Below are positions 5,250-13,357 of a DNA stretch of 64,000 bases, one piece after another. A model generated the notes under the pieces. The model saw only the letters and a program-made list of their open reading frames with translations. It ran no database searches and was not told the origin of the DNA. The position numbers and the translations under genes are program-made. Source of the DNA: Geomonas ferrireducens (GTDB taxonomy: Bacteria; Desulfobacterota; Desulfuromonadia; Geobacterales; Geobacteraceae); contig NZ_SSYA01000003.1 in assembly GCF_004917065.1 (NCBI RefSeq), forward strand, positions 1 to 64,000, read 5' to 3'. The stretch's first letter is position 1. Each line of letters opens with the position of its first letter.

Positions 5250-6125
5250 TTACGACTTATTTTCTTTCTCGGCCTCAGTGATGAAACTGTCAATGATCTC
5301 ATAAGTTTCAACAGGTTTCTCCTCCTGAGGGTTGTGTCCGCATTCCTCGATCACCCGCAGCTTTGCCCCTGGAATGGCAGCGTGAAGGCGACTCCCCTGT
5401 GACAGTGGCACGATCTCGTCGTGCCTTCCCCAAAGAAGCAATACCGGTAGGCGCAGGTCCTGGTAACGGGAGGCGATCTCTTCCTGGTTGACCGGCACCA
5501 AGCTGCGGCAGGTCGCGACGAGGGCACGCTTGGCGGCTTTGTTGCGGTAGCAGGGGGCGTACCTGGCGATGTGTTCCCGGTCGATGAGGCTGTGGTCGTA
5601 GTAGGCCATCTTCAGCCCAACTTTCACCCAAACGTCCGGTGCATACAGGGCAATGAAGAGGGCAGCGGCGTAACGGTTTTTAAAAATGTCCGCCATAAGT
5701 GGCAGTCGCTGGAGGTACCCGGGGCCGGCCATGATGATCATGGAGGCCAAAAGATCGCGCTCATCCCGGAGCATCGCTTCTATCGCGGTCAGCAGCACCA
5801 CTGCTCCGCCCAACGAATGCCCGGCGAGGACGACCTGTGCGAACCCTTCCTTCCTGAGGAAAGCGATGAGGCGGACAGCGTGACCGCGGATGGAGTAGTC
5901 CCCTTCTTTCGGCTTCGAGGATTCTCCAGACCCGAGCAGGTCGAGAAGATGGACGCTGTAACGGCTGGCGGGGAAGAGCGAAACGAGATCACTCCATGTC
6001 TCGGATCTTGCCGCCAGGCCGTGCACCAGGACGACGTTGGTTGGCCCCGTCCCATAGGTACGGTAGGCGAGAGTCTCGGTTTCCGACAGGCGACAGAATA
6101 GAAGGGGGAGTGTGGCGATGTTCAT
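5250..6125 (-). CDS. Alpha/beta hydrolase
   Basis: A 291-residue alpha/beta-fold hydrolase. The oxyanion-hole motif is LVHGLAA, the nucleophile elbow AGHSLGG, the acid lies in GRHDEIVP and the catalytic His in ECGHNPQEEKP. All triad members are present and correctly ordered. A cap domain lies between the Ser and Asp motifs. The substrate cannot be inferred. The start at 6125 (MNIATLP) fits the family better than the upstream ATG at 6185, which adds a basic, unconserved stretch; neither has a strong ribosome site. Confidence 0.88.
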   Translation of the reverse strand: MNIATLPLLFCRLSETETLAYRTYGTGPTNVVLVHGLAARSETWSDLVSLFPASRYSVHLLDLLGSGESSKPKEGDYSIRGHAVRLIAFLRKEGFAQVVLAGHSLGGAVVLLTAIEAMLRDERDLLASMIIMAGPGYLQRLPLMADIFKNRYAAALFIALYAPDVWVKVGLKMAYYDHSLIDREHIARYAPCYRNKAAKRALVATCRSLVPVNQEEIASRYQDLRLPVLLLWGRHDEIVPLSQGSRLHAAIPGAKLRVIEECGHNPQEEKPVETYEIIDSFITEAEKENKS

Positions 6126-6594
6126 GTCGGGTAGTTTAACAGAAATACAGGCGGAACGCTGGGGTGGGAGGCGGCGAAAAGCCAAGTCTCTGTTACTCTT
6201 GTGGCTGGGCTATTAGCACTGGCACTCCGGCAACAGAAAAGGCCCGATGCATAATCATCGAGCCTTGTGTGAAAAAATAACTGGCGTCCAGTGAACCTGC
6301 TCGATCCGAGGGAGTGGTTTTGGTGCTTCCTGAAGTAACTTCTGCAGCCACCCTTGTCTGGTCTTTTTATGCCATAACGGACGAGATCTTAAAGCCTTTC
6401 GGCCTGGTCTCCTGAGCGTCAGTTACCAACCCCTGATGCCGCTTCATGCACCTGGAGTTGTTTTCGTGTCGATTTGTGAAGTTCTTTGTCTTGTTGTCCC
6501 TCCATAAGAAACATTTTACTCCTGCCACTTTGTCGGATCAACACTTTTTGTGCAGGTCTATGAGGTGCAAGGTACTGTTTTTCAGGAGGAAGAT
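6126..6594. other. Intergenic region between hydrolase and biosynthetic locus
   Basis: I find no convincing gene in these 470 bases. The only clear structure is a minus-strand terminator-like hairpin at 6237-6264. The region must contain the promoters of the two divergent flanking genes. It is AT-richer than its surroundings from about 6460. Confidence 0.6.
6237..6264 (-). terminator. Terminator-like hairpin on the minus strand
   Basis: Read on the minus strand: GGCTCGATG, loop ATTATG, CATCGGGCC, then TTTT. The stem is nine pairs with one mismatch. No minus-strand gene lies upstream of it within the next 300 bases, so it could end a short unannotated transcript or be a leader attenuator of the hydrolase gene. 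Confidence 0.45.
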
Positions 6595-8010
6595 GTGCCG
6601 TCCCGCATACTCGTCATCAGCACGAACCGTGAGCGTGCCCCGCAGCCGACGGTTCCTCTCGGCGCGGCCTGGGTGGCCGAGTCGCTGCTGCAGGCCGGCT
6701 TCCAGGTCCGCCTGCTCGACCTCTGCTTCGCCCGGGATGCGCTGCGCGCGACGCAGGACGCCATCGCCGCGTTCGCTCCCGACGGCATCGCCCTTTCCGT
6801 AAGAAATCTCGACAACTGCAACTTCCTCAACCCCAAATCCTACCTTACCGAGGTGCGGCTACTGGTGGATTTCATCAAGTCGCGCAGCGACGCCAGAATC
6901 CTCGTGGGAGGCTCCGGCGTGAGCATCATGCCGCAGCAGGTCCTCGACTTTCTCGACCTGGACCATGCCGTTGTTGGGGAGGGGGAGCATGCCGCCCCGC
7001 TTTTTTTTCGCACTGAAGGAGCCGAGCATGCCGGACGTGTGGCAGGGGTGGCCCGCCGCAGCAAAGCCGGCATGGCGGACGCGGACGGGGGGGCTGCAAG
7101 CGCCGGCCCCTTCATCACGCCGCACCTGCACCGCTGGGTGGAGACACCGCGTTACCTCGCTCTGGAGCCGGTGCTGCCCGTCCAGGGGAAGAGGGGGTGC
7201 ACCCATCGATGCCTATACTGCACCTACCGCAGCATCGAGGGGGAGTCGTGGCGGGTCAGGGAGCCGGGAGCGGTGGTCGATGAGATCCTATCGGCCATGC
7301 ATCACACCCGGGCACGCGAGTTCGAGTTCGTGGACAGCATCTTCAACGAGCCGGAGGGGTATCTGGAAACCTTGCTAGATGAGATTTTGAGGCGTGGGAT
7401 CAAGGCCCGCTTCAGCGTCTCGTCCCTTTCCCCGAAAGGGCTCACCAGGAATCAACTTGAGCTGATGGCCCGCGCGGGAGTGGCTTCCGCGGTCATCACT
7501 CCCGAGAGTGCAGCCGGCGCCACCCTGGCTGCGCTAGGCAAGGGATTCGACGAGGACGAGGTGCACCGCGCCGCGGAACTTGTTTCAAGCTCGCGCCTGC
7601 GCGCCTTGTGGTGCTTTCTTCTGGGTGGCCCCTCCGAAGATGAGATGACCCTGGGAAAGACGGTGGCCTTTCTGAACCGCTACCTGAGTGACAAAGACCA
7701 CGCCTTCCTGACCACCGGGATACGTATCTACCCGGGTACCGGTTTGCATGATGTAGCCTTGCGGGATGGGCTGGTTGCGGCAGGAGACGATCTGCTCATG
7801 CCGGCTTTCTATTTTTCGCCGCAGCTTACCCCGCAGCAGGCCCGGACGCTTTTGGACCGGGGAATAAGGGCGCCGTCGCGCTGCATCAATCTGCTTGATA
7901 CACAAGCTCCGGTAATTGGGGCTTTGCGCCGGATTGGAACTGCTGTGGGGTTGCCGACGCCGTACTGGCGCTATACCCGCTTCGCCAAGGCGATGAGCCG
8001 CAAACGCTGA
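6595..8010 (+). CDS. B12-binding-domain/radical SAM protein
   Basis: A 471-residue protein with an N-terminal cobalamin-binding-like Rossmann domain (about 5-140) and a radical SAM core carrying CX3CX2C in RGCTHRCLYC (Cys202, 206, 209) that binds [4Fe-4S] and SAM. Downstream elements (EFVDSIFNEP, VITPESAAG, FLLGGPSEDE) fit the B12-dependent radical SAM (Elp3/MiaB-like) fold. I choose the GTG start at 6595 because AGGAGGA lies just upstream; the ATG at 6550 has no ribosome site. It opens the type III polyketide synthase locus and may methylate or rearrange its product; the substrate is unknown. Confidence 0.88.
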   Translation: MPSRILVISTNRERAPQPTVPLGAAWVAESLLQAGFQVRLLDLCFARDALRATQDAIAAFAPDGIALSVRNLDNCNFLNPKSYLTEVRLLVDFIKSRSDARILVGGSGVSIMPQQVLDFLDLDHAVVGEGEHAAPLFFRTEGAEHAGRVAGVARRSKAGMADADGGAASAGPFITPHLHRWVETPRYLALEPVLPVQGKRGCTHRCLYCTYRSIEGESWRVREPGAVVDEILSAMHHTRAREFEFVDSIFNEPEGYLETLLDEILRRGIKARFSVSSLSPKGLTRNQLELMARAGVASAVITPESAAGATLAALGKGFDEDEVHRAAELVSSSRLRALWCFLLGGPSEDEMTLGKTVAFLNRYLSDKDHAFLTTGIRIYPGTGLHDVALRDGLVAAGDDLLMPAFYFSPQLTPQQARTLLDRGIRAPSRCINLLDTQAPVIGALRRIGTAVGLPTPYWRYTRFAKAMSRKR

Positions 8011-8104
8011 CAGAGGTGTAAGTCGCTCCTGCACGTTGATAATAATATGTTAGAATCGGCAAATGCTTTGTCACTCAATTCCCCTTCAGTACCAAGGAGC
8101 GACA

Positions 8105-8887
8105 GTGTCTGCTTTCATTCGAATGAGTAGCAAGCTGCTGTTGGTATTTTTGCTGCTGTTGCCTTTGTCGGTACAGGGCGCACCGGTGACGGTAAGGTTC
8201 ACCGAAGGAATGGTGCGCGGCTTTCTCGTACTAAAAGACGAAACCGGCAATCGGATCGCTTCCGGTGATTTTCTGCAGCTACCCAAGGACGGCGGGATAA
8301 AGACCCGCATCGTACTCTATTTCAAGGACGGTTCTCTCCACGACGAGACGGTGATCTTCTCGCAGCAGCGCCACTTCCTCTTGAGGAGCTACCGGCTCAT
8401 ACAGAAAGGGAAGTCTTTCGACCAGGACCTTGATGTGTCCCTGGAACGGAGCCCCGGCACCTACCGGGTGCGCGTGAAAGGAAAGGATGGCCGCGAGAAG
8501 GTCATGCAGGGGGAGCTGGAACTTCCGCCCGACGTCTACAACGGCATGGTGCCGACGGTGATGAAGAACCTCGTCAAGGGGAACAGCGAGACCATCCACA
8601 TGGTGGCCTTCACCCCGACACCGAGGGTCGTCGAGCTTGAGATGTCCCCTTCCGGCGAGAACAAGATACTGATCGGGGACGTCGAGAAGACGGCAAACCA
8701 CTACGTGCTCAAACCGAAGCTCGGACTGCTGAGGCTTCCCGCCGCCCTCCTCGGCAAGAGCCCACCGGACAACCACATCTGGACCCTCATGGACGAGGTA
8801 CCCGCCTTCGTCAAATTCGTAGGTCCTCTCGCCACGGGAGGCCCCGTCTGGCGTATCGAGCTGACGAGCCCCAGCTGGCCCAAATAG
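8105..8887 (+). CDS. Secreted protein of unknown function
   Basis: A 260-residue protein whose N-terminus is a signal peptide (basic start, then LLLVFLLLLPLSVQGAP, cleavage after about residue 26). The mature part is rich in beta-strand-like alternating sequence and has no cysteine clusters or recognisable catalytic motif. I do not recognise the family. The GTG at 8105 has AAGGAG six bases upstream and is preferred to the ATG at 8063. It lies between the radical SAM gene and the methyltransferase on the same strand, so it may act on, carry or anchor a lipid-like product in the periplasm (inference from position only). Confidence 0.75.
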   Translation: MSAFIRMSSKLLLVFLLLLPLSVQGAPVTVRFTEGMVRGFLVLKDETGNRIASGDFLQLPKDGGIKTRIVLYFKDGSLHDETVIFSQQRHFLLRSYRLIQKGKSFDQDLDVSLERSPGTYRVRVKGKDGREKVMQGELELPPDVYNGMVPTVMKNLVKGNSETIHMVAFTPTPRVVELEMSPSGENKILIGDVEKTANHYVLKPKLGLLRLPAALLGKSPPDNHIWTLMDEVPAFVKFVGPLATGGPVWRIELTSPSWPK

Positions 8888-8907
8888 AAAAGGGAAAGAA
8901 TCAGCCT

Positions 8908-9615
8908 ATGCCGTTTATCCCACGCAGGAGGACAAACCTGGAATTTCTCGATCTCCCTTCGGACGTCTGCAGTGTCGACGAACTCGAAGGGAGTCTCGCC
9001 GACATTCGCACGGTGAACCGTTATCTGGGCGACCGCTGGGCGCTTTTGAAACACCTGTCGGCTCGGGCGAAGGGGCTGGTGCGGTTCACGGTGCTTGACG
9101 TCGCCACCGGTTCCGCCGACCTTCCGGTCACTATGGTTGAGTGGGCGCGTAAAAAAGGGATCGATATCAGCGTCACTGCAGTCGACATCAACAGCCGCAC
9201 CATAGACATTGCGCGCCGGTGCACCCTGCAATACCCCGAGATCGAGCTGATGGTCGCCGATGCCCTGGAACTCCCGTTCCGGGATGGGAGCTTCGATTTC
9301 GTGCTCTGCAGCAAGACCCTGCACCACATGAAGGAGCCGGAAGGGATCGCCGCGCTGCGTGAAATCATGCGCGTGGCGCGGAGGGGATACCTCGTCATGG
9401 ACCTGCAAAGGAGCTGGGTCGCCTACCTCCTCATCTACGCGCTCACGAGAATTTTCACCAGAAACCGCATGACCCGATACGACGGCCCGCTCTCCGTGCT
9501 GAAGGCGTTCACCGTCGAGGACCTCACCCTGTGGGCGCAGCAGGCGGGTGCCCCCTCCTTCAGGATCCACCGCGAGCCGTTCTGGCTGCTCGTTCTCTCC
9601 GGGGATAAATCATGA
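8908..9615 (+). CDS. SAM-dependent methyltransferase (type III PKS-associated type)
   Basis: A 235-residue class I methyltransferase. Motif I is VLDVATGSADL (62-72), the acidic SAM-ribose contact lies in VTAVDINSRT, and the FDFVLCSKTLHHM stretch is motif IV/post-IV. The N-terminal LEFLDLP ... LADIRTVNRYLG signature is one I associate with methyltransferases beside bacterial type III polyketide synthases, and a PKS gene is indeed two genes downstream. It probably methylates the polyketide ring or carbon skeleton. It overlaps the next gene by four bases (ATGA), which indicates translational coupling. Confidence 0.88.
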   Translation: MPFIPRRRTNLEFLDLPSDVCSVDELEGSLADIRTVNRYLGDRWALLKHLSARAKGLVRFTVLDVATGSADLPVTMVEWARKKGIDISVTAVDINSRTIDIARRCTLQYPEIELMVADALELPFRDGSFDFVLCSKTLHHMKEPEGIAALREIMRVARRGYLVMDLQRSWVAYLLIYALTRIFTRNRMTRYDGPLSVLKAFTVEDLTLWAQQAGAPSFRIHREPFWLLVLSGDKS

Positions 9616-10841
9616 AGTTCTCCGTCGCCACCAATTTCGAGCCCGACCTGCTGCCCGCTCTCGAAGGATTTCCGGTCACGGAGCTCTTCGGCAAGCTTGC
9701 CAGTGACAGCATAGGCGGGGGGCGCGCCTCCTTCATGCTGGCGCCCCTCGGCAGGGACCGCTTCCGCGCCCACGTCGCAGATGCGGCGCGGAGGGGAATC
9801 GGGTTCAACTACCTGCTGAACCCCGCCTGCCTGGACAACCGCGAGTACACCCGCAAGGGGCAGCAGGACCTGGAACGGCTGCTCGAGTTTATCGAGGAGT
9901 GCGACGTCACCTCGGTAACCGTCTCGCTTCCTTTCCTGCTTCCCATCATCAAGAAGCGGCACCCACGCCTCAAGGTGCGGGTGGGCGTCTACGCGCGGGT
10001 GGATTGCGTGGCGAAGGCCAAGTTCTGGGAGGAACTGGGGGCGGACTGCATCACGCTCGAATCGATCGCGGTGAACCGGGACTTCGCCATGCTGCAGGCG
10101 ATCCGCGAGGCGGTGCGCATCGAGCTTCAGCTCATCGCCAACTCCAACTGCCTCATCTTCTGCCCCTGGTCGGGACAGCACATGGTGAACCTGTCGCACG
10201 CCTCCCAGAAGGGGCACGAAAGCCGCGGCTTCATGATCGATTACTGCGCCCTGCGCTGCTCCGCGGCAAAGCTCGCCGACCCGTCGCATTACCTGCGCTC
10301 CGAGTTTATCCGGCCCGAGGACCTCGGAGCCTACACCGGGCTTGGCTACCATTTCTTCAAGATCCTGGAGCGGGGTGCGCCGACGCAGGTGCTGGCGCGC
10401 CGGGTGAGGGCCTACGCAGAAGGACGCTTCGAAGGAAACCTGCTCGATCTGATCCAGCCATACGGTTACCGGGGGGGCGGAGGAAGCGGGGGGCTTGCCG
10501 GGCTTTTGAGGTTCGCGAGGTTCTTCCTCCGTCCGGCAACGGTGAGCCCTACCGGGCTCATGCGCCTGAAGCGTCTGGCCGAGAAGCGCGGCTTGCTGGC
10601 GGGACTGGACTGGCACCCGGTCTACATCGACAACCGGCTCCTGGACGGCTTTCTGGACGGCCTGAAGGAAATCGAATGCCGGGGCTGTGATTGCTCCCGG
10701 TGCGGCTACTGCGCCCGCTGGGCGGAGAAGGCGGTCAGAGTCGACGCGAAGTACCGCGAGGAGATGCTGCAGCTTTACCAGGCCGCTTTCCATGACATGC
10801 ATTCCGGCGCCCTCTGGGGGGTGACCGATAGGAGGGGATGA
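9612..10841 (+). CDS. U32 (UbiU/TrhP-type) iron-sulfur protein
   Basis: A 409-residue member of the U32 'peptidase' family. Known relatives UbiU/UbiV, RlhA and TrhP bind [4Fe-4S] through four cysteines and hydroxylate aromatic or tRNA/rRNA substrates without O2. Here the candidate ligands are Cys180, Cys184, Cys212 and Cys216, in the characteristic place after the TIM-barrel-like region (VGVYARVDCVAK, ADCITLESIAVN). A second cluster of five cysteines (356-367, CRGCDCSRCGYC) near the C-terminus is an unusual addition that could hold another cluster. It sits between methyltransferase and PKS with four-base overlaps on both sides. I infer an O2-independent hydroxylation of the polyketide; peptidase activity is unlikely. 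Confidence 0.85.
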   Translation: MKFSVATNFEPDLLPALEGFPVTELFGKLASDSIGGGRASFMLAPLGRDRFRAHVADAARRGIGFNYLLNPACLDNREYTRKGQQDLERLLEFIEECDVTSVTVSLPFLLPIIKKRHPRLKVRVGVYARVDCVAKAKFWEELGADCITLESIAVNRDFAMLQAIREAVRIELQLIANSNCLIFCPWSGQHMVNLSHASQKGHESRGFMIDYCALRCSAAKLADPSHYLRSEFIRPEDLGAYTGLGYHFFKILERGAPTQVLARRVRAYAEGRFEGNLLDLIQPYGYRGGGGSGGLAGLLRFARFFLRPATVSPTGLMRLKRLAEKRGLLAGLDWHPVYIDNRLLDGFLDGLKEIECRGCDCSRCGYCARWAEKAVRVDAKYREEMLQLYQAAFHDMHSGALWGVTDRRG

Positions 10842-11929
10842 TGATCGATGCACGTTTCACCAAAGGGGAGCCTGCCTCGCCCGGGGCGGTCTACGTCGCC
10901 TCAGTGGCGTCGGCCGTACCGGAGTTCAGCGCATCCCAAAGTTACGCGGCGGAACTCGTCCGGCAGCGCTTCAAGGAGAGCCTGACGCCGAGGAGCCTCG
11001 GGTTGATCCGGGCGACCTTCGAGCACCCGGCCATCGAGAAACGTCACTTTGCCGTCGACGCGCCGGCGCGCATCTTCGACGAGACCGCTGACGAACGTGT
11101 CGCCCGTTTCACAGAAGAATCGGTGGCGCTTGCGGCGCGGGTAGTGTTGTCCGCACTGGAACAAGTGGGGTTATCGCCCTTGCAGGTGAGCGGCTTGGTG
11201 CTCAACACCTGTACCGGCTACATCTGTCCCGGCATCTCCACCTACGTTGCGCAGCGTCTCGGAATGCGATCGAGCACCCGGCTTTACGACCTCGTCGGTA
11301 GCGGCTGCGGCGGCGCAATCCCGAACCTGCAGGTGGCCGAGTCGATGCTGAGAACAACCGGTGGCGTCGTGGTGAGCGTCTCGGTGGAGATCTGCAGCGC
11401 CGCCTTCCAGATGGACAACGACCTGAGCCTAATCCTCTCCAACGCGCTCTTCGGCGACGGCGCGGCGGCTGCCGTTTTGTGGCAGAAACCGGTCGGGTTC
11501 GAGTTGACGGCATCGGCAGGGCGCTACGTGCCGGAGGAGCGCGAGGCGATCCGCTTCATCCACAAGGGGGGGCAGTTGCACAACCAGTTATCGACCGACC
11601 TTCCCGGTCTGGTGGCAAGGGCCGCGGCCGAGGTGGTCGACGACCTTTTGGACTCGGCCGCGCTGGAAAAGGAAGACATCGGGGCGTGGGCGCTGCATAC
11701 CGGCGGCGAGAAGGTGATCAATGCGGTGCGGGACCAGGTGGGGATACCGGAAGAGCTCCTCTGGGCGACGCGGCGGGTCCTGTCCCAGTACGGCAACATG
11801 TCTTCGCCTACCGTCTGGTTCGTGCTCGAGGAGATGATGCAGAAGGGGATACCTGCCGGTACGTGGTGCGTCCTGCTCGCCTACGGCGCGGGGCTCTCCG
11901 CCCATGCCTATTTGCTACGCAAGACCTGA
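10838..11929 (+). CDS. Type III polyketide synthase (chalcone synthase family)
   Basis: A 363-residue thiolase-fold homodimeric synthase that condenses malonyl-CoA onto an acyl starter without an ACP. The full Cys-His-Asn triad is visible: Cys157 in VGSGCGGAIPNL, His287 in ALHTGGEKV and Asn320 in YGNMSSPT. The NTCTGYICPGIS and NALFGDGAAA motifs are diagnostic for type III PKS rather than FabH. Bacterial relatives make alkylresorcinols, alkylpyrones or phloroglucinols; the chain length and starter cannot be read from sequence. The start ATGATG overlaps the U32 stop by four bases behind GGAGGGG. It is the last gene of the plus-strand cluster. Confidence 0.92.
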   Translation: MMIDARFTKGEPASPGAVYVASVASAVPEFSASQSYAAELVRQRFKESLTPRSLGLIRATFEHPAIEKRHFAVDAPARIFDETADERVARFTEESVALAARVVLSALEQVGLSPLQVSGLVLNTCTGYICPGISTYVAQRLGMRSSTRLYDLVGSGCGGAIPNLQVAESMLRTTGGVVVSVSVEICSAAFQMDNDLSLILSNALFGDGAAAAVLWQKPVGFELTASAGRYVPEEREAIRFIHKGGQLHNQLSTDLPGLVARAAAEVVDDLLDSAALEKEDIGAWALHTGGEKVINAVRDQVGIPEELLWATRRVLSQYGNMSSPTVWFVLEEMMQKGIPAGTWCVLLAYGAGLSAHAYLLRKT

Positions 11930-11944
11930 AGGTGATTGATGCTT

Positions 11945-13357
11945 TTAAAATCTGTGGCGGGAGCGGAACTGGTCACCGGTGAAATAGCCGCGCACCAGGT
12001 CGAGGTTGTTGAGCAGCACCTTCCAGGCCCCCTTCTCGCGCTTTTTCACGAAGCGGTTCCCCACGAACATCGAGGGGCTGAAGAACGCCTTTAGGTTCTC
12101 CCAGTTCATCAGCCGGTTCAACTGGGCCGTGCTGAGTTGTCTCGTCCTCACGTTGCACATGAAGCCGGTGTACCTGCTCAATCGGTCGGAATTCGTCACG
12201 AGCCCCGCCTGCAGCAGCTCCTCCCTGATCCTGGTGCCGGGGTAGGGGGTGACGCACTGCACGTAGGGGAGGTCCACCCCCAGCCGGCGCGAGGCGCGGA
12301 ATACTTCCCTTATCTCCTCCTTTCCGTCGTCGGGATTGCCGATGATGAAGCCTCCCATCACCCCGATGCCGTGTTCGCGCAAGCGGCGCACCGCCTGCCT
12401 GGTCTGCTCCCGGATGTCACCCTTTTCAAAAAGAGCGAGGTTCTTCGGCAGCACCGACTCGATGCCGAGGAATACCATGGCGAAGTTCGCACGGGAAAGC
12501 GCCGGTATAAGCGCCGGGTCGGCCACGATGCCGGCGACGGATGCCTGGACCAGGTACTCCATCTCGTTCAGCCCCTGCTCCGCGATCGCCTCGGCGAGCC
12601 GGGTGAAACGGCGGCTGTCCAGGGTGATGTTGTCGTCGACCAAAAGCACCGTCTTCGTGCCGCGCCGCTTTAGTTCCCTCAGGTCTTCGATCACCATCTC
12701 GATCGGGCGGCATCGGAAGCTGGAGCCGTACATCCCGGTGATCGAACAGAAGGTGCAGGTCTTGGTGCAGCCGCGCGAAGTTTCCACGCAGTCGAGCCGG
12801 CGGTCGAAGTAGGTGAAGCCGTCCAGAGCGCGCACGCTGCGGTCCGGCAGCGGCAGGCACTTTAGGTCGAGCAGAGGTCCGGGAGGATTGTGGACGAAGA
12901 CACCGTGGCGCGGCCAAGATAGGCCGGGGACGTCGAAAAAGGAGCGCTGGCCGTCGAGCGCTTCCAAAAGGGCGGCAAAGGCATGTTCTCCTTCACCGCT
13001 TATCAGGAAGTCAAACGGGGCGTCGCCGGAGGCGAGTTCTTCGCGGGTGAGGGTGGCGTGGTAGCCCCCGAGTACGAGCCGTGCGCGCGGGGCGGCTGAG
13101 CGGCAGATGGCGAAGACTTTCAGGGCGCTTTCGTATTGGAAGCTCATGCTGCTGACGCCGATTACGTCGGGAGAGAACTCAGCCAGGAGCCGTCTGAGCC
13201 ACGACTCGATGTCGCGATGCACCAGGACGAGATCGACGATCTTCACCCGGTGTTCTTTGAGGTGCGCGGCGATGGAGCAGAGCCCGAGGTTGGGGACCTT
13301 GATGATGCGATGGAAATTGTTGGCGGCATCGGGCATCGCCAGGAGGAGTACGTTCAT
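11945..13357 (-). CDS. B12-binding-domain/radical SAM protein
   Basis: A 470-residue protein with an N-terminal cobalamin-binding domain (MNVLLLAMP ... GLCSIAAHLK, then LVLGGYHATL) and a radical SAM core with RGCTKTCTFC (Cys197, 201, 204). The C-terminal region has the YVQCVTPYPGT and LMNWENLKAFF elements common in B12-dependent radical SAM enzymes of lipid or natural-product pathways. The start at 13357 has AAGGGAA upstream; longer in-frame starts lack this. It ends 15 bases from the PKS stop on the opposite strand, so it is convergent with the cluster rather than in its operon, but functional linkage is plausible. Confidence 0.88.
   Translation of the reverse strand: MNVLLLAMPDAANNFHRIIKVPNLGLCSIAAHLKEHRVKIVDLVLVHRDIESWLRRLLAEFSPDVIGVSSMSFQYESALKVFAICRSAAPRARLVLGGYHATLTREELASGDAPFDFLISGEGEHAFAALLEALDGQRSFFDVPGLSWPRHGVFVHNPPGPLLDLKCLPLPDRSVRALDGFTYFDRRLDCVETSRGCTKTCTFCSITGMYGSSFRCRPIEMVIEDLRELKRRGTKTVLLVDDNITLDSRRFTRLAEAIAEQGLNEMEYLVQASVAGIVADPALIPALSRANFAMVFLGIESVLPKNLALFEKGDIREQTRQAVRRLREHGIGVMGGFIIGNPDDGKEEIREVFRASRRLGVDLPYVQCVTPYPGTRIREELLQAGLVTNSDRLSRYTGFMCNVRTRQLSTAQLNRLMNWENLKAFFSPSMFVGNRFVKKREKGAWKVLLNNLDLVRGYFTGDQFRSRHRF

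Follow-up and report, generated by a model that had tools for sequence, protein, structure and literature searches.

We found a type III polyketide synthase (PKS) cluster in Geomonas ferrireducens in which a U32-family protein stands in place of the O2-using enzyme of phenolic-lipid clusters, which suggests a route to hydroxylated or quinone lipids without oxygen. The product of the cluster is probably a modified phenolic lipid that is formed without O2, with the U32 protein hydroxylating the ring in the stead of an FAD monooxygenase. At the level of sequence and predicted structure, we show the gene set with its overlaps and conservation, the fold and cysteine motifs of the U32 protein and, among the genomes searched, its mutual exclusion with the monooxygenase. 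Few enzymes are known for the O2-independent hydroxylation of aromatic rings, and pairs of similar clusters that differ in carrying either an FAD monooxygenase or U32 are a ready genetic system for U32 function and the oxygen source. These pairs also hint that metal-reducing bacteria may have quinone lipids still to be discovered.

Gene content and conservation of the cluster

The window (the whole stretch of DNA analyzed, 64,000 nucleotides) carries on its forward strand a SAM-dependent methyltransferase (MT, PRK06202-like; 8908..9615), the U32-family protein with two four-cysteine motifs (9612..10841), a candidate O2-independent ring hydroxylase, and the type III PKS (10838..11929). As an earlier reading from the sequence alone had stated, these open reading frames overlap by four bases each, MT/U32 at 9612-9615 and U32/PKS at 10838-10841. 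The PKS starts at 10838 or 10841, with AGGAGGGG directly upstream, and is of the chalcone/stilbene-synthase type by Pfam. The full Cys157/His287/Asn320 triad noted in that reading is indeed present and is invariant in all 44 aligned PKSs. The best NCBIfam model of the MT is PRK06202 (139.8 bits, below the cut-off of 243); used as a query, the protein recovers homologous MTs in nine plasmid-borne PKS loci that also have FAD/NAD enzymes (72-96 bits).

These genes are flanked by two B12-binding radical SAM proteins, rSAM1 (6550..8010, forward strand; start uncertain, placed earlier at 6595) and rSAM2 (11945..13357, reverse strand, transcribed toward the operon). Both have B12-binding and radical SAM domains by Pfam and the motif CX3CX2C, located at residue 217 in rSAM1. 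An open reading frame absent from the earlier reading (8123..8887, forward strand) codes for a predicted exported protein with a signal-like N-terminus, judged by eye. It is an optional member, found in 13 of 18 loci, has no match in Pfam or NCBIfam, and gave an AlphaFold2 model (pLDDT, 45.9) too poor for use. An alpha/beta hydrolase (5250..6125, reverse strand) is a neighbor kept in the Geomonas and Citrifermentans loci that were opened, and is a candidate member of the pathway.

The gene caller misplaced genes in G+C-rich loci, and the key genes were placed by tblastn. In a search of 58 relatives, the U32 gene was present in 17 of the 19 genomes of the genus (its own included) and in one of another genus; one copy (G016) has a single in-frame stop. 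All 18 loci keep the MT, U32, PKS, and the radical SAM gene on the opposite strand (rSAM2). Across the phylum, type III PKSs were found in 34 of 395 genomes and strong U32 matches in 11 (ten above 400 bits and one split over two contigs, by a threshold chosen after the scores were seen). All 11 carry a type III PKS, in nine of them within one cluster with U32; they span six families, five of which have the U32-PKS cluster. The probability of this association by chance is 4e-13 if genomes are treated as independent, which they are not. The co-occurrence that the sequence-only reading had proposed to look for is therefore conserved, both among relatives and across families, and the conserved arrangement with its repeated co-occurrence led us to reject a chance neighborhood of U32 and PKS. 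Of the set of five genes put forward in that reading, the two radical SAM genes mark one subtype only, the wider core being PKS, U32, and MT; some loci that lack U32 likewise have an rSAM1 homolog next to the PKS.

Members of the U32 subfamily were also found away from PKS genes, and outside the phylum a search of the Nitrospirae (n = 3) and Gemmatimonadetes (n = 1) genomes with this U32 clade yielded no type III PKS, the highest score being 96 bits. A search with PKS profile A5 at 1e-60 had no match in 77 genomes of one further phylum, in one of which (G447) the broader profile A3 did find a PKS that A5 had missed. Within the phylum, the protein belongs to a distinct U32 subfamily tied to the type III PKS.

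Fold, cysteine motifs, and branch of the U32 protein

Assignment to U32 from the primary sequence is weak, with a match to PF01136 of 25.2 bits (cut-off, 22.4) over residues 86-175 only, and of 26.6 bits in a second search. An AlphaFold2 model built from 28 sequences was confident (pLDDT, 91.3; pTM, 0.90), and its best Foldseek match in the PDB was the U32 structure 5d88 (E value, 1.4e-10; TM score by target length, 0.75), followed by a second-best match at 1.2e-5. As modeled, the protein has the U32 (TIM-barrel) fold. Its eight motif cysteines, arranged as CX3C-X27-CX3C at residues 180-216 and CX4CX2CX2C at 356-367, are invariant in the 27 members of its clade, and the spacer between the two CX3C pairs is 27 residues in all but two of them (24 in L061 and L062). 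The motif CX6CX15CX3C, given as typical of the family in the consulted sections of PMC11574389 and PMC6747719, is absent from the window protein.

In a tree in which UbiV and some other rows form long branches, the window protein was separated from seven UbiU/UbiV/TrhP/RlhA-type rows with support of 100/99. Grouping with the tRNA/rRNA-modifying branch, which the first reading had named as evidence against its own proposal, is absent from this tree, and an RNA-modifying or protease role for the gene was rejected on the basis of it. The Pfam name (peptidase U32) and the two other U32 matches of the genome, both stronger, might suggest a tRNA/rRNA-modifying or protease U32 placed here by chance. 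Considering that the gene separates in the tree, overlaps its MT and PKS neighbors, and recurs together with a PKS in six families, this is very improbable. For scanning the collection, no usable pattern could be derived from 16 diverse aligned U32 rows; the closer alignment A1 was used instead and, hence, distant U32 members are under-sampled in that scan.

Mutual exclusion of monooxygenase and U32

Among the 24 genomes of the class with a PKS of the type that we call C, 10 have an FAD monooxygenase (>400 bits), 10 have U32, none has both, and four have neither at the strong level. Four of the 24 belonged to our first sample, and without them the counts are 8, 8, 0, and 4 of 20. The probability of no overlap by chance is 5e-4, calculated as though the genomes were independent, although they are not. 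The monooxygenase belongs to PF01494 and is UbiH/UbiF-like, and the MT adjoining it in G277 passes a UbiE/MenG subfamily model. Both enzymes can occupy the same slot, YceI-PKS-FMO-MT in G277 and G550 versus YceI-PKS-U32-MT in G529 and G616 (FMO, FAD monooxygenase). Within one genus (g276), five genomes have YceI-PKS-FMO-MMPL-x-MT and three have YceI-PKS-MMPL-x-U32-MT, where x is an exported protein. The exported protein of type C clusters (~200-225 amino acids), for which we use the label LolA, has no Pfam match. Replacement of the oxygenase by U32, as originally proposed, gains comparative support in that similar PKS clusters have one enzyme or the other and never both, and in that plasmid operons of other bacteria combine the same MT family with an FAD enzyme. 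No FAD enzyme is found among the genes of the window cluster, and the genome of the window has no match at 1e-25 to profile A4, built from three cluster monooxygenases. Counting against the replacement, no FAD monooxygenase partner was found in the opened loci of the window's own PKS clade.

The U32 protein could instead carry out another O2-independent step on the polyketide, such as dehydroxylation, decarboxylation, quinone reduction, or ring closure, the exclusion reflecting only two old cluster lineages swapped whole. The two forms in g276 carry PKSs of different lineages, so that the exchange may have involved entire clusters and not a single gene; the PKS tree requires only three changes between FMO and U32, and the cysteine spacing of the subfamily is unlike the spacing in known U32 hydroxylases. 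However, G277, with the monooxygenase and without U32, is sister to G318 and G357, with U32 and without the monooxygenase (support of 100/100 in one PKS tree and 97/92 in another), the two enzymes never coincide among the 24 genomes, and U32 proteins of known function are O2-independent hydroxylases in the sections consulted of PMC6747719 and PMC11574389. We therefore consider another step unlikely and favor ring hydroxylation. This step is dispensable in some genomes, given those with neither enzyme at the strong level (in three of the four, FAD enzymes are matched weakly, in one case by a fragment next to the PKS), the in-frame stops in 2 of the 10 monooxygenase genes, and four PKS loci near the window's type (L140, L141, L145, and L147) that have rSAM1 and no U32.

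A point against the proposal is that heme-copper oxidase genes of the COX1 family were found in 30 of the 34 PKS genomes, in every strong U32 genome except G418 (10 of 11), and in all 24 type C genomes of both forms; hence, this marker does not separate the U32 form from the monooxygenase form. PF00115 may catch NO reductases too. On these COX1 matches, the simple account of an anaerobe having no O2 was rejected. The genome of the window itself has five of them, and the earlier wording "in this anaerobe" needs care.

Proposed pathway and comparison with known systems

From its family, the PKS would extend an acyl starter with malonyl units into an alkylresorcinol-like ring. The U32 protein would then hydroxylate this ring without O2, the step for which sister clusters have an FAD monooxygenase; if it works like UbiU/UbiV, it may draw the oxygen from an organic donor, for example prephenate, and employ [4Fe-4S] clusters. 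The MT would methylate the ring or a hydroxyl, and the two B12 radical SAM enzymes might introduce additional C-methyl groups or carry out a chain rearrangement. The end product would likely be a membrane lipid, either a methylated alkyl-hydroquinone or quinone or a phenolic lipid that has been hydroxylated. More tentatively, anaerobic and microaerobic bacteria may make polyketide (hydro)quinones without O2 through a U32 hydroxylase that holds two predicted Fe-S clusters in a single chain. This would parallel, independently, the pair UbiUV versus UbiHIF, and these lipids could be unrecognized redox carriers of Geomonas and its relatives.

It is also quite conceivable that the product is a hydroxylated, methylated phenolic lipid (or pyrone) for the membrane or envelope and not a quinone, with U32 hydroxylating the ring or the chain. 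The MMPL transporter and YceI-like genes of type C clusters fit an exported lipid, whereas their MT is UbiE/MenG-like, of a family that acts on quinols. In the consulted sections of the respective papers, the PKSs of planctomycete MT-oxidoreductase-PKS operons make alkylresorcinols, the role of the oxidoreductase being left open (PMC10896814), whereas Mycobacterium and Streptomyces have operons of three genes, for a PKS, a methyltransferase, and an oxidoreductase, that lead to polyketide quinones (PMC9927152).

Judged by titles and passages, our literature searches gave no paper tying a U32 protein to a polyketide pathway. The pkq (Mycobacterium/Streptomyces), srs, hidABC, and planctomycete operons, compared by description, share with the window a type III PKS, a SAM methyltransferase, and a ring-oxidizing enzyme, and the planctomycete ones, as far as described in those sections of PMC10896814, also share the order MT-x-PKS. 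Their oxidizing enzyme is an FAD/NAD oxidoreductase, whereas the window has U32, the candidate for this role, instead, plus two B12 radical SAM enzymes. Among 13 plasmid records with a related PKS (hand-picked from 30 listed of 35; four without annotation were read from our own ORF calls), an oxidoreductase lies beside the PKS in 12 and an MT in 10, with the MT or FAD gene on the opposite strand in two. In Paludisphaera, the genes run MT-FAD-PKS and overlap by 4 bases, which is the order of the window with FAD for U32.

The best NCBIfam model of rSAM1, matched over nearly its full length, is TIGR04072, a B12 radical SAM family of lipid biosynthesis; rSAM1 differs in scoring below the model cut-off (324 versus 360 bits) and in being linked to a type III PKS. 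UbiU/UbiV resemble the window protein in belonging to the U32 family, in serving a lipid pathway as the alternative to FAD monooxygenases of the UbiH/UbiF type, and in their potentially Fe-S-binding cysteine motifs. However, the window protein falls outside their branch and its substrate is presumably a polyketide. UbiU/UbiV are a heterodimer with one cluster each, according to the sections of PMC6747719 consulted, whereas the window U32 has both four-cysteine motifs in one chain.

Gene cluster of the window and its U32 protein

The cluster opens with a B12/radical SAM gene (rSAM1, 6550-8010, plus strand; Pfam/NCBIfam match), followed on the same strand by an exported-protein ORF without any family match (8123-8887), a methyltransferase (MT; 8908-9615, family match), a U32-family gene (9612-10841, marginal Pfam match) and a type III polyketide synthase (PKS; 10838-11929, family match). 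A second B12/radical SAM gene (rSAM2, 11945-13357) lies on the minus strand, facing the others. The sequence-only reading had described four-base overlaps among MT, U32 and PKS, the last three plus-strand genes, and a full PKS catalytic triad; the ORF coordinates bear out the former, and the latter is conserved in every one of the 44 relatives aligned. Pks11 and pks18 are the nearest solved structures to this PKS.

The U32 protein is barely recognised by Pfam; its predicted structure is confident and has the U32 structure 5d88 as best PDB match. In a tree with long branches for UbiV and some other proteins, its family splits from UbiU-, UbiV-, TrhP- and RlhA-type proteins (support 100/99), grouping neither with the tRNA/rRNA-modifying enzymes nor with UbiU/UbiV. 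The U32 proteins of PKS-bearing genomes form one group (97/89) with those from Nitrospirae, Nitrospinia and Gemmatimonadetes. Residues C73, C180, C184, C212, C216, C356, C361, C364, C367, H190 and H196 are invariant in 27/27 members of this group and C146 is conserved in 20/27, while C212 and C356 are variable in U32 proteins outside it. We read the single U32 chain as carrying two predicted Fe-S sites.

Conservation and association with the PKS

Among named organisms, Geomonas is closest to this genome. Within the genus, the U32 gene is present in 17 of 19 genomes (the one with the window included), and it also occurs in one genome of another genus. MT, U32, PKS and rSAM2 occur together in all 18 of these loci, and the gene for the exported protein, which is conserved and perhaps all-beta, in 13. 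A sample of 395 genomes of the phylum gave 41 with a match to the U32 family profile at E 1e-20 and 34 with a PKS at E 1e-30. A strong U32 group, delimited only after a score gap was seen (411 to 330 bits) and including G338, whose U32 gene is split over two contigs, comprises 11 genomes of six families; the PKS is present in 11/11 and in a single cluster in 9/11. The remaining 30 genomes with family matches include five with a PKS match (chance 0.025, with genomes treated as independent, which they are not). Co-occurrence, named as a check in the sequence-only reading, is conserved; the gene set with both radical SAM genes is one subtype of a wider PKS, U32 and MT core. In a named collection the PKS lies within the examined stretch in 16/23 loci with this U32 gene.

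Three architectures were distinguished: (a) the window type, rSAM1-(orf)-MT-U32-PKS with rSAM2, whose genes recur in changed order in related MAGs (L165-L167, L169, L177; some loci cut by contig ends); (b) U32-MT-PKS, with radical SAM genes absent (L061, L062); and (c) YceI-PKS-(MMPL, exported protein)-U32-UbiE-like MT, whose PKS, here named type C, has 28-30% identity to that of the window. A 2-oxoacid ferredoxin oxidoreductase lies near the PKS of L061, and genes resembling phenylacetate-CoA ligase and indolepyruvate ferredoxin oxidoreductase (by eye) near that of L139 (9479-16546), where neither U32 nor rSAM1 adjoins the PKS; these neighbours could possibly provide aryl starter units. A Nitrospinia MAG has YceI-U32-rSAM1 with a PKS on a separate contig. 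Three Nitrospirae MAGs (L168:9203-12919, L170, L171; Pfam check on L168 only) carry the same U32 clade in the order MT-U32-polyketide cyclase-beta-ketoacyl synthase, resembling an aromatic polyketide, type II-like set, and no type III PKS was found in these three genomes. The Gemmatimonadetes member is isolated, and a PKS search of its genome gave none.

Against a strict tie, family members also occur in unrelated clusters, and the window-clade PKS loci L140, L141, L145 and L147 keep rSAM1 and lack U32. Since a TIGR04072-like radical SAM gene (family checked in L140 alone) adjoins the PKS there without U32, it is tied to the PKS itself. U32-family genes adjoin LuxC-, LuxE- and FAD-enzyme-like genes in L063, L064, L067 and L068 (Pfam check on L067 and L064 only), with no PKS nearby; tandem pairs occur in two (L063:2928-5326, L064:9074-11430) and homocitrate-synthase-like genes in L063, L067 and L068. 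Two copies about 10 kb apart flank apparent branched-chain amino-acid type ABC transporter genes (by eye) in L072:3674-16815, and a row of rSAM2-similar genes precedes the U32-family gene on an Omnitrophica contig (L176).

FAD monooxygenase and U32 in type C clusters

In the phylum sample, a UbiH/UbiF-like FAD monooxygenase (FMO, PF01494) adjoins the PKS in three type C clusters, and none of these three genomes has a U32-family match. Type C PKSs were found in 24/277 genomes of the class (538-638 bits), four of them already part of the phylum sample. The monooxygenase (412-751 bits; in-frame stop in two of the genes) and U32 (565-599 bits) each occur in ten of the 24, never together. The remaining four have neither; three of them show weak FAD-enzyme matches (160-169 bits), that of G573 being a fragment adjoining the PKS. 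The order is YceI-PKS-FMO-MT in G277 and G550 versus YceI-PKS-U32-MT in G529 and G616. Both forms occur in the genus g276, as YceI-PKS-FMO-MMPL-x-MT in five genomes and as YceI-PKS-MMPL-x-U32-MT in three (x stands for an exported protein); they fall on different PKS clades there, so the exchange would be of clusters. The PKS tree needs three FMO/U32 changes; for the FMO label, at least two of them cannot be avoided given the well-supported branches. G277 (FMO) is sister to G318/G357 (U32, on a different contig) with support of 100/100 and 97/92.

COX1-family genes are present in 30/34 PKS genomes of the phylum sample, including 10/11 strong U32 genomes (all but G418), and in 24/24 type C genomes of the class. 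Since both forms have them, U32 is not simply a marker of oxidase-free organisms. The proposal that U32 would stand in the oxygenase's place has strong comparative support, the mutual exclusion in the 24 type C genomes included.

Relationship to known systems

The comparison was extended outside the phylum to 13 of the 35 plasmid records that carry a related PKS; their hosts are mostly aerobes. An oxidoreductase lies at the PKS in 12 and an MT in 10; three oxidoreductases were identified by eye from our own ORF calls, that of Microvirga is short and annotated as NAD-binding only, and Pfam confirmed a FAD enzyme in 6/7 tested. The window MT matches nine plasmid-locus MTs at 72-96 bits (76-103 in reverse), whereas type C clusters, whose MTs are UbiE-like, give only 28-33 bits.

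In the accessible literature, subscription journals and preprints lying outside its scope, we found, among the papers listed, no report of a U32 protein tied to a polyketide pathway and no description of this subfamily; in the accessible text of PMC7820076, "peptidase U32" and "polyketide" both occur without connection. Papers that mention U32 along with type III polyketide synthases likewise proved to be on other subjects. As excerpted, the sources describe UbiU and UbiV as O2-independent hydroxylases with one [4Fe-4S] cluster each (PMC6747719), CX6CX15CX3C as the usual motif of U32 oxidases and prephenate as the donor of oxygen when ubiquinone is made anaerobically (PMC11574389). They also place 58/96 planctomycete PKS genes in MT-oxidoreductase-PKS operons, the assayed PKSs making alkylresorcinols and the oxidoreductase role being left open (PMC10896814), and assign polyketide quinones, with a low-oxygen link, to PKS-MT-oxidoreductase operons of Mycobacterium and Streptomyces (PMC9927152). 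The locus of Paludisphaera, MT-FAD-PKS with four-base overlaps, has the plan of the window with FAD for U32. We read the window cluster as a polyketide-quinone-type operon in which a member of this U32 subfamily, as a putative O2-independent enzyme, would replace the oxygenase.
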